A DNA stretch of 64,000 nucleotides from contig NZ_AJHJ01000001.1 of NCBI RefSeq assembly GCF_000257645.1, positions 62,001-126,000 on the forward strand, in the 5' to 3' direction. The first letter of the stretch is position 1; each line of letters begins with the position of its first letter. This DNA is from Serratia sp. M24T3 (GTDB lineage: Bacteria > Pseudomonadota > Gammaproteobacteria > Enterobacterales > Enterobacteriaceae). Made by a program: the position numbers and the translations under genes. The notes under the pieces were generated by a model. That model made no database searches. It was given only the letters and a program-made list of their open reading frames with translations, and was not told the origin of the DNA. This document shows positions 34,163-38,127 of this stretch, one piece after another.

Positions 34163-36880
34163 TTAGCTCTGCAGACGGCCGTGGCACTGTTTGTATTTCT
34201 TACCTGAACCGCATGGGCAAGGATCGTTACGGCTCACTTTGCGATCAGCGGCCGCCGGGCTGCCTGCGGTTGGCGACAGTTCCTCTTCGAGAGAGGCAAC
34301 GTGGCTCAGCTGTTGCTGCTGTGCCAGACGCTCGGCTTCTTCACGGCGGTGCTCTTCCATGGCCTCAACTTCTTCAGGCATACGCACCTGAACCTTGCTC
34401 AATACGCTAACCACTTCATATTTCAGTGATTCAAGCATTGATGCAAACATTGCGAAGGATTCACGCTTGTACTCTTGCTTAGGATCCTTCTGCGCATAGC
34501 CACGCAGATGGATACCCTGACGCAGGTAGTCCATCGCTGCAAGATGCTCTTTCCACAGGGAATCGAGGGTCTGTAGCATCACACCTTTCTCGAAGTTGCG
34601 CATCATGTCGATGCCAACCACTTCTTCTTTGCTGGAGTAAGAATCTTTGGCGATTTGCAAAATACGCTCGCGCAGAGTCTCTTCATGAAGTTCAGGCTCT
34701 TTATCCAGCCATTCCTTGATAGGCATCTCCAGTTCGAAGTCGTTCTTCAGGCGCTCTTGCAGGCCTTCAACATCCCACATTTCTTCCAGAGACTGTGGTG
34801 GAATGCAGCTGTCGATAGTGCTTTTGAACACGTCTTCACGGATGCTGGCGATGGTTTCGCTCACGTCGCTAACGTCCAGTAGTTCGTTACGCTGCGAGTA
34901 AATTGCGCGACGCTGGTCGTTGGCTACATCATCGTACTCAAGCAGTTGTTTACGAATGTCATAGTTACGGCTTTCAACTTTACGCTGTGCGTTGGCAATA
35001 GCCTTGGTCACCCACGGGTGCTCGATAGCTTCGCCCGGTTTCATACCCAGTTTACGCATCATGTTGGCAACGCGATCGGATGCGAAGATACGCATCAGCT
35101 GGTCTTCCATAGACAGGTAGAAGCGGGATGAACCGGCATCGCCCTGACGCCCCGCACGGCCGCGCAGCTGGTTATCGATACGACGCGATTCGTGGCGCTC
35201 GGTACCAATGATGTGTAAACCGCCGGAAACCAGAACCGCTTCGTGACGGATGTTCCAGGCTTCTTTGATGCTGGCGATTTGCTCTGCCGTTGCATCTTCA
35301 CCCAGATTTTCGATTTCAACCTGCCAGCTACCACCCAGCACGATATCAGTACCGCGACCGGCCATGTTGGTAGCAATGGTCACGCGGCTAGGCTGACCGG
35401 CCTGCGCAACGATATCTGCTTCTTTAGCGTGGAACTTGGCGTTTAGAACGCTGTGTTCGATACCGGCCTTGGTCAGCTCGTGAGAAACCACTTCAGACTT
35501 CTCAATCGACGCGGTACCGACCAGAATTGGCTGGCCGTTGGCGCTGCGAACTTTGATATCTTCAATGATAGCGCCAATTTTTTCCATTTCGGTCATGTAG
35601 ACCAGGTCTGGCAAATCTTTACGCTGCATTGGGCGGTTGGTTGGCACCACGATGGTATCAAGCTTGTAGATGGTGCTGAATTCAAACGCTTCGGTGTCAG
35701 CAGTACCCGTCATACCGGCCAGTTTTTCGTACAGGCGGAAGTAGTTCTGGAAAGTGATGGACGCCAGTGTCTGGTTTTCGTTTTGAATATCAACGTGCTC
35801 TTTGGCTTCAACGGCCTGATGCAGGCCGTCTGACCAACGGCGGCCCTGCATGGTACGGCCAGTGTGTTCATCAACAATGATGACTTCGCCGTCTTTCACG
35901 ATGTAGTCAACGTCACGGGTGAACAGCACGTGGGCACGCAGCGCGGCGGTCACATGGTGCATCAGCATGATGTTGCCTGGGGAATAGAGCGACTCGCCCT
36001 CTTCCATGATGCCTGCTTCAGCCAGCAACTCTTCAATCAGGATCAGACCGCGTTCAGTCAGGTGAACTTGACGTGCTTTTTCGTCCACAGAAAAGTGGCC
36101 TTCGCCCTGGAAGGAGTCGGAGTCTTCTTTTTCCTGACGGATCAGTTTAGGGATCAGTTTGTCTACGCGAATATACATCTCTGAGCTATCTTCGGCCGGA
36201 CCGGAGATGATCAGCGGAGTACGGGCTTCATCGATTAAGATTGAGTCGACCTCATCCACCAGCGCGTAGTGCAATTGACGCTGCACGCGTTCTTCAATGC
36301 TGAACGCCATGTTGTCACGCAGATAGTCAAAGCCGTATTCGTTGTTGGTGCCGTAAGTGATGTCCGCAGCGTACGCTTCACGCTTGGCCGGTGCTGGCAT
36401 GTTTGGCAGGTTGATACCTACGGTCAGGCCAAGAAATTCAAACAGCGGGCGGTTATTTTCGGCGTCACGTTGCGCCAGATAGTCGTTGACGGTAACAACG
36501 TGAACACCCTTGCCGCTCAGCGCATTCAAGTAGGCTGGCAGGGTTGCGGTCAGCGTTTTACCTTCACCTGTACGCATTTCTGCGATACAGCGTTCGTTCA
36601 GTACCATACCACCGAGCAGCTGCACGTCGAAGTGACGCATGCCGAACACACGATCGCTCGATTCTCGAACCACTGCAAAAGCTTCCGGGATTAAAGATTC
36701 GAGCTCTTCGCCCTTGGCAAGGCGTGCACGGAATTCGTCAGTTTTAGCACGCAGTTGTTCGTCGCTGAGTGCCTTGATTTCAGGCTCGAGGCGGTTAACC
36801 TGGTCAACCACTTTGCGCATACGGCGCAGAGTACGATCGTTACGGCTACCAAATACTTTGGTCAAAATTTTGCTGAACAT
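34163..36880 (-). CDS. secA: Preprotein translocase ATPase SecA
   Basis: Motor that drives unfolded proteins through SecYEG. In order: NBD1 with Walker A MRTGEGKT (about 102-109) and [13 protein letters not shown], preprotein cross-linking domain, NBD2 with [13 protein letters not shown], helical scaffold and wing, and a C-terminal zinc finger [16 protein letters not shown] (Cys888, Cys890, Cys899 and His900) for SecB and ribosome binding. It has 905 residues, against 901 in E. coli. The upstream secM should regulate its translation according to secretion demand. Confidence 0.98.
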
Positions 36881-37019
36881 AATTCTTGATTTCTCGTTAA
36901 GCCACTCTCGGCGGCTACTATTTATGTTGAAACTTTGGGTCTTGCCGGCGCAGTTAATAGGCTTATGACTTACTTACTGGCGCAATAAAAAACGGCAGAG
37001 ATCACTTCAGGAATGACAA

Positions 37020-37553
37020 TCAAACAAGAGAGAGTTTTGGACCGGCGCGCGTACCCAGAACTTGTGCGATCCACAATCCAGGTTGGTATTGATTGGAGGC
37101 CGTGAGCAGCGTTTGCTGAGTACCACGGATAATAACGGGAGGTTTTGCCTCATGGGTCAGCAGCGAGTTAAGCGTAACCAGCAAGGCGAGTTGTTGCACG
37201 TGCAGCGGTTCAGCATCGGCTGAAACGGCGGTGTGCGTCACAACATTATAGGTAACAACCTGTGGGGCGAGTGCAAAAGAAAGATGACGAATGACGGTGC
37301 GTAGCGCATGCTGCTGCCAATAGTCGACGCCTAACGAGGCACGACGATTACCCTGCAGCCATGCCAAATTGGTCAGCCCGCGGTTGCCGATATTTAAACG
37401 GTTTAGACTTGGCGAGGTATTGGTTACACTGGCCAACTCAGTTTGTGAAAGATTCGTCGACACGCCAAGGCTAGCCGCGACCATCCCCAATAGGAGATGC
37501 GGCCAAAAATACCTTCTGCCAAATTGTCGCCAACGATTTAGAATACCAATCAC
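37020..37553 (-). CDS. secM: SecM secretion monitor with substituted arrest motif
   Basis: Leader protein that stalls its own ribosome to expose the secA ribosome site; export pulls the stall free. The N-terminus ([24 protein letters not shown]) is an exported signal near-identical to E. coli, and the segment [22 protein letters not shown] is conserved. The arrest region at 156-172 reads [17 protein letters not shown]. Compared with the canonical FSTPVWISQAQGIRAGP, Phe150 is Tyr and Ile162 is Thr; Trp, Ile, Gly and RAGP are kept. It is 177 residues long with a GTG start. secA follows after 139 bases. Confidence 0.92.
37038..37088 (-). promoter_or_regulatory. SecM ribosome-arrest peptide coding region
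   Basis: Codons for SecM residues 156-172. Sense codons read directly from the sequence include Pro172 CCA, Arg169 CGC, Thr168 ACG and Gly167 GGT. Stalling at Pro would hold the ribosome about 155 bases before the secA start. Confidence 0.85.
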
Positions 37554-37581
37554 AAGTTTTACAATCCGCCGGAGCTCGTCA

Positions 37582-38127
37582 ATGCGTAACAGCCGCCCAC
37601 AATTATTAGATATCCTGTTCGATGACGCTACCGCTGCCGGGCAAAGCCCTCTGCGCGTAGTTCAACAACGTGCGGCCGCATTACTCAAGCTCAATCGCGC
37701 TGTCAAAAGTCTGCTACCGACCCAAATGCAACCGTGGTGCCGGGTGGGTAATTATCGCCAGGGTGTATTGGTGCTAGAGATAGCAAATGCCAGTTGGATG
37801 ATGCGGTTACGTTATGAACAACCGGCGCTTCTCTCTGCACTTCGAGCGCAAATACTACCATCATTGTCTTCAATCGACATCAGGATTAATCCATCGTTGA
37901 TGGCGAAAGTGGAAAGCATTGCACAGAAAAATGAAAATTCTGCTCGAGAATATGAAAAAACGGGAATATCAAAAGGACCCTTGCCGCAAGTAAGGCAACT
38001 GAGTAAACAAAGCGCAGAAGAATTACGACAGTTGGCGAGCCGTAGCCCTGAGAAACTTAGAAAGGCATTAGAACGACTGGCTGAAATGGCCGGAGAGGGT
38101 GCCAAGACAACCAGTCGTAATAAGTAA
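37582..38127 (+). CDS. DciA/DUF721 family protein
   Basis: Protein of 181 residues. The N-terminal KH-like DUF721 domain is recognisable ([18 protein letters not shown], then [20 protein letters not shown] and [13 protein letters not shown]). This fold is that of DciA, the ancestral bacterial loader of the replicative helicase DnaB. The C-terminal third is charged and probably disordered or helical. The start at 37582 has GGAG upstream and the family N-terminus ([15 protein letters not shown]). It is divergent from secM, with only 28 bases between start codons, so the secM promoter probably lies inside it. It is convergent with lpxC, 12 bases away. Whether it loads helicase here is unknown. 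Confidence 0.8.

Follow-up and report, generated by a model that had tools for sequence, protein, structure and literature searches.

The minus strand of the window (the whole 64,000-nucleotide stretch of DNA analysed) carries a secM gene that adjoins secA on its upstream side. The 177-residue open reading frame matches the Pfam SecM family PF06558 (3.8e-42) and the NCBIfam SecM equivalog NF002799 (1.4e-59; 201 bits against a cut-off of 100; residues 3–174), and a protein search of the source genome found it in single copy. Its GTG start lies at the same place in the 13 loci aligned, and the annotated start of E. coli SecM is also V. Residues 3–27, where an N-terminal export signal would lie, are invariant or nearly so in 32 aligned SecM proteins. 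lpxC lies upstream of secM, with a DciA-like reading frame between the two on the opposite strand. We found secM in all six Rouxiella genomes searched, and among the best 80 of 274 relatives (hereafter the named set) those at 82–87% identity include Rouxiella silvae, R. badensis and R. aceris. The reading frame is an authentic SecM secretion monitor, in a Rouxiella genome, and because the whole orthologous gene is present its arrest motif is not a chance resemblance. The divergent neighbour of secM (37582–38127, plus strand, 181 aa) matches Pfam DciA, the DnaC/DnaI antecedent, at 1.2e-16. The features of the locus are as follows.

34163..36880, minus strand: secA, the downstream regulated gene, which directly follows secM
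36881..37019, minus strand: secM–secA spacer of 139 nt, longer than usual (median 70 nt in the 184 loci measured)
36901..36915, minus strand: small hairpin just upstream of the secA ribosome-binding site (6-pair stem, from an alignment of 13 sequences)
37020..37553, minus strand: secM coding sequence, 177 aa, GTG start, TGA stop at 37020–37022 (open reading frame and family matches)
37038..37088, minus strand: arrest window of 17 residues, E. coli numbering 150–166 (translation, compared with 266 family motifs)
37038..37049, minus strand: RAGP core, with a stall expected at Pro172, the equivalent of E. coli Pro166 (R, A and P in 266 of 266 motifs, G in 265)
37050..37052, minus strand: Thr162, ACG codon, the unusual residue (T in 4 of 266 motifs, I in 261, N in 1)
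37086..37088, minus strand: Tyr150, TAC codon, ordinary in the family (Y in 36 of 266)

The first-pass annotation had described this motif as an arrest peptide with substitutions at two critical positions, Tyr for Phe150 and Thr for Ile162, in which the equivalents of W155, I156, G161, R163, A164, G165 and P166 are kept. Translation of the minus strand against E. coli K-12 SecM (FSTPVWISQAQGIRAGP from residue 150) confirms both substitutions and every kept residue, while the plus strand at 37038–37088 encodes a peptide unrelated to the SecM motif. An identical motif in a second genome of the same species (hereafter the window species) makes a sequencing error unlikely. The window and E. coli (FxxxxWIxxxxGIRAGP) thus share an orthologous gene before secA and the residues just listed, but the window protein has Y150, G153, L160 and T162; Ile162 is absent, and Thr stands there. 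Five residues follow its RAGP, compared with four in E. coli and in the commonest tail of the family (210 of 266), and its secA spacer is 139 nt compared with 61 in E. coli.

How unusual these residues are can be read from a survey of SecM confined to one family of the order. We profiled 392 genomes, of which 271 had a match, and fetched 267 loci; the short partial matches in the small genomes G041, G133, G139 and G153 were left out before fetching. Addition of the Rouxiella genome G005, which was outside the draw, brought the set to 268 loci, and 266 motifs could be read. The two loci without a readable motif are L202 and L212, the latter with masked bases. One match (L142) has an internal stop, and its motif was taken from the open piece that contains it. 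The named set overlaps the 266 in species.

The arrest motif proved uneven in its conservation. Position 150 is F in 123 motifs, H in 84, Y in 36 and another residue in 23; position 153 is G in 105, A in 47, P in 34 and another residue in 80; position 156 is L in 134, I in 87 and V in 39. Trp155 is kept in 254 motifs and Gly161 in 259. R163, A164 and P166 are each present in 266 of 266, and G165 in 265. Position 162 is I in 261, T in 4 and N in 1. The commonest class of motif departs from the nine E. coli residues at two of them (120 of 266). Tyr150 is therefore ordinary and Thr162 rare in the family, and Ile162 is a common but not a defining feature of SecM, because it is absent from 5 of 266 homologues. 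Position 155, which has also been called critical in E. coli, carries Arg in 10 of the 266 motifs (for example HRTGIRLAQVQGIRAGP; loci L252, L268, L273, L132, L142 and five others).

These counts divide the first-pass claim of two critical substitutions. The part concerning Phe150 does not stand, since Phe itself occurs in only 123 of 266 motifs and the E. coli F150Y mutant, as described in passages of PMC6340945, keeps about 50% of stalling, or about 80% when combined with P153A; Tyr150 as a defect is ruled out by the family counts. The part concerning Ile162 stands. According to the same source, stalling among the conservative E. coli mutants is weakest with I162L and R163K, which are at the level of the matching alanine mutants; its results give the position-162 change as I162L, and its discussion names it 'lysine'. 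Ile162, Arg163 and Pro166 were reported as invariant in 2009 (Yap and Bernstein), a statement repeated in passages of the 2024 structure paper PMC10951299, so the window carries a rare natural Thr at a position reported as invariant. Other natural departures from the E. coli core have been described: LAGP, RADP and RASP among SecM homologues (passages of PMC10987492) and RGSP in Mannheimia SecM. Whereas those variants change the core itself, the window SecM has its core intact and the residue before it changed. No report joining SecM and I162T was found in the literature searched; searches on natural SecM variants yielded nothing further among the matches listed, and Rouxiella is unmentioned among the matches listed.

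We located Thr162 in both genomes of the window species, in R. badensis and in one locus (L177) of a separate genus, g69, with the motif WQAGIWLSQVQGTRAGP. In the named set it occurs in R. badensis only, and L072 of that set has Ile; the other three Rouxiella species have Ile162. The second g69 genome found, L183, reads GNRADP, that is, Asn162 followed by RADP in place of RAGP, a combination that looks like decay. Both g69 genomes found (L177/L349 and L183/L350) pair Trp150 with a residue other than Ile at 162.

The history of these residues was traced on a secA+lpxC tree, which recovers R. badensis as sister to the window species (bootstrap 99) and joins G005 to R. silvae (bootstrap 100). Parsimony on this tree puts the replacement of Gln160 by Leu before the split of four Rouxiella species and that of Ile162 by Thr in the ancestor of the two sister species; Tyr150 and Ile156 were acquired most recently, by the window species. 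The sister relationship makes one origin of Thr162 in Rouxiella likely. It is not certain, because a SecM-only tree of the family (263 distinct proteins), built with the motif removed, does not pair the two Thr162 Rouxiella species and has four changes at position 162.

The first-pass annotation had suggested that local changes, PGL before the Trp and VL before the Gly, compensate for the substitutions. The comparison with near relatives argues otherwise. The SecM proteins of R. aceris, Ewingella, Rahnella and Yersinia (HQPGLWLAQVQGIRAGP type) resemble the window protein in G153, in L154 before the Trp, in V159 and in having His or Tyr at 150, but they keep Gln160 and Ile162. R. aceris retains HQPGLWLAQVQGIRAGP and Ewingella has the same motif, which we presume to be ancestral. 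PGL and V are both already present in R. aceris, Ewingella and Yersinia, so they did not arise to compensate for Thr162; as new compensations they are ruled out by Ile162 relatives that carry both, and PGL is, by this comparison, the ancestral background in the nearest genera. Leu160 is common to four of five Rouxiella species and so older than Thr162, and since Thr162 stands with Gln160 in the other genus, Leu160 is not required.

A further question is whether the gene is still under selection. Comparison of the motif codons of the window species with those of R. badensis gives 3 nonsynonymous changes (path-averaged; two residues differ) and 8 synonymous ones (dN 0.09, dS 1.08), and the whole of secM gives dN 0.09 and dS 0.64. 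In 10 pairs from sister genera (Rahnella; Ewingella with Hafnia psychrotolerans; Serratia) there are 0 or 1 nonsynonymous motif changes. Judged by these substitution patterns, secM is not decaying: gene and motif are under purifying selection, looser than in the sister genera. A decaying gene, which the first-pass annotation had entertained, is unlikely because this selection is seen between two Thr162 species. The presence of Thr162 in both is no proof of selection on Thr itself, because one codon could persist by chance.

Outside RAGP, the motif has evolved more rapidly in Rouxiella than in sister genera. Measured against R. silvae and G005, the window species has 6 differing motif residues at 90–94% identity of the remainder of SecM, whereas 188 non-Rouxiella pairs in the same identity band have at most 4 motif differences. 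Within the usual range are the window species against R. badensis (2 differences) and R. silvae against G005 (0). On the family tree the Rouxiella motif has 8 changes compared with 2.15 expected from the remainder of the protein, which ranks 5th of 96 partly nested clades of the same size. Both rate tests, by identity band and by family tree, were chosen after the motifs had been seen.

The leader RNA of secA is also distinctive in Rouxiella. Spacers at the six Rouxiella loci run from 127 to 142 nt, nearly twice the median of 70 nt; among the 184 of 268 loci measured, those with a recognised secA start, the only other one within this range is L233, at 133 nt. A scan of 36800–37900 for sigma-70 and terminator consensus sequences gave no hit on the minus strand and none in the spacer, and the plus strand yielded two promoter-like sites at a near-chance level, so that a secA promoter or terminator within the long spacer was rejected as far as the consensus scan extends. 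Rouxiella, Ewingella and Rahnella all retain the small hairpin, in which 94.8% of alignment cells are paired, a level reached by only 1 of 500 shuffles. In two of its pairs both partners have changed (37 of 500 shuffles reached this number), and the row of the window species keeps four of six pairs.

Folding models of 235 leaders connect a stall to access to secA in some lineages. A modelled stall lowers the opening cost of the secA site by a mean of 1.14 kcal/mol (median 0.43), compared with a drop of 0.54 (median 0.14) in a swap control. At L118 and L152, which have the exact E. coli motif, the predicted cost falls from 5.3–5.8 to 2.7–2.8 kcal/mol, and in the g69 genomes from 6.3 to 4.9 (L177) and from 7.7 to 4.6 kcal/mol. 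The shift in Rouxiella is −0.17 to +0.49, with no benefit in four of five species and a small one in R. aceris, so stall-dependent opening of the secA site in this genus is unsupported by the model. One Serratia and one Yersinia leader, modelled in the same way, gave no stall benefit for secA access either, so the model may miss their switch. The window species has a predicted opening cost of only 1.1 kcal/mol, the 7th lowest of 235; in R. badensis the site is closed, at a predicted 5.0 kcal/mol (rank 174 of 235). In G005 (L354), a scan of cut points, along which the cost goes from 3.5 to 1.3 kcal/mol, located the masking arm about 10–30 nt downstream of the stall, farther than the edge of the ribosome is expected to reach. 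Direct pairing between the end of secM and the secA site, scored as duplex energy against shuffled arms, has a mean z of −0.51 over 228 leaders. It is strong in the two g69 genomes, at −19.5 kcal/mol in L177 (z −1.7), where it involves the part of secM just past the stall site, and at −18.2 in L183 (z −1.18). It is modest in the window species (z −1.29) and does not exceed that of shuffled arms in R. badensis (z +0.74).

Combining these observations, we propose that the window SecM is, on balance, probably a working arrest peptide, weaker or retuned in comparison with E. coli. We infer the stall, its strength and its release. In the proposed mechanism, the SecM C-terminus would stall its ribosome, Gly165 occupying the P site and Pro166 waiting in the A site, for as long as the Sec machinery does not pull on the nascent chain, and would in this way set secA translation. 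In Rouxiella other than R. aceris, the outer part of the arrest window has drifted while RAGP was kept, and Ile162 gave way to Thr in the likely shared ancestor of R. badensis and the window species. Arrest would have been kept but, set against E. coli, would be weaker or more readily released. The structure paper (passages of PMC10951299) places the Ile162 side chain on A2058 and allows a bond between A2062 and the main-chain carbonyl of this residue. With Thr162 the beta-branched shape and the main-chain carbonyl contact to A2062 would be preserved, whereas hydrophobic packing on A2058 would be lost. Beta-branching could be the reason that Thr162 is tolerated.

The strongest rival, which we consider unlikely without being negligible, is that the Thr162 lineage retains little or no arrest, that secA is expressed without it, and that secM persists as a coupling leader or by inertia. 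Since I162L behaves like alanine in E. coli, Thr162 could abolish arrest; these mutants, with R163K, are among the weakest described in passages of PMC6340945. The fast drift of the Rouxiella motif, the long secA spacer, the low opening cost predicted for the secA site of the window species and the lack of a stall benefit in the folding model all point in the same direction. Against this, RAGP is kept, with synonymous changes around the core, despite high synonymous divergence. R. badensis, which also has Thr162, has a closed secA site, and the Serratia and Yersinia leaders are likewise without a stall benefit in a model that may miss their switch.

Rather less probable is that the peptide arrests with full wild-type strength, Thr162 being compensated by Gly153, Leu160 or the upstream segment. 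Removal of Pro153 rescues some weak E. coli mutants, F150Y best of all (passages of PMC6340945), and the window has Gly153. Across the family, Pro153 occurs only together with Phe150 (34 of 123 motifs with F150 compared with 0 of 143 others), and on the family tree Fitch changes number nine for Pro153 and five for Phe150. This fits the laboratory rescue of a weak residue 150 by removal of Pro153, though given shared ancestry the pattern is no more than suggestive. The passages of PMC6340945 on P153A, however, describe no great rescue of the position-162 mutant. Moreover, Gly153 is ancestral in Rouxiella, is common alongside Ile162 elsewhere and is found in 105 of 266 motifs, whereas Thr162 is found in only 4.

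That a changed Rouxiella ribosome tunnel accepts Thr162 is highly improbable and, for the uL22, uL4 and 23S positions checked, close to refuted by sequence comparison: among the uL22 and uL4 proteins from six Rouxiella genomes nothing is peculiar to the two Thr162 species, uL22 is identical to E. coli from residue 73 on, tunnel hairpin included, and 20 of 20 23S positions around the arrest site, in a list drawn in part from papers, are as in E. coli in all seven rRNA copies compared, which come from five genomes other than R. aceris, so that ribosome compensation was rejected for want of a matching change.

Within the preferred reading of a weaker or retuned arrest, a more specific idea can be put forward tentatively. 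Because Leu and Ala fail at position 162 in E. coli, arrest may need a beta-branched residue there, in which case Thr162 would be a functional alternative to Ile, and the Thr lineages may possess a force sensor with a lower release threshold, joined to a long secA leader unlike that of E. coli. SecM peptides are employed both to sense force and to model nascent-chain arrest, and the two natural Thr162 lineages offer a direct test of what position 162 must do. The E. coli list of critical residues is itself partly local, with Phe150 in 123 and Ile156 in 87 of the 266 motifs.

A separate observation concerns a stretch of about 17 nt that spans the secM stop codon and continues beyond it (TTGATTGTCATTTCTGA); it is almost unchanged in five Rouxiella species, with at most one difference per species. 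The flanks of this stretch vary more (L355:3753-3924 and the other Rouxiella rows of the alignment), and visual inspection shows a short complementarity between it and the region where ribosomes bind for secA.
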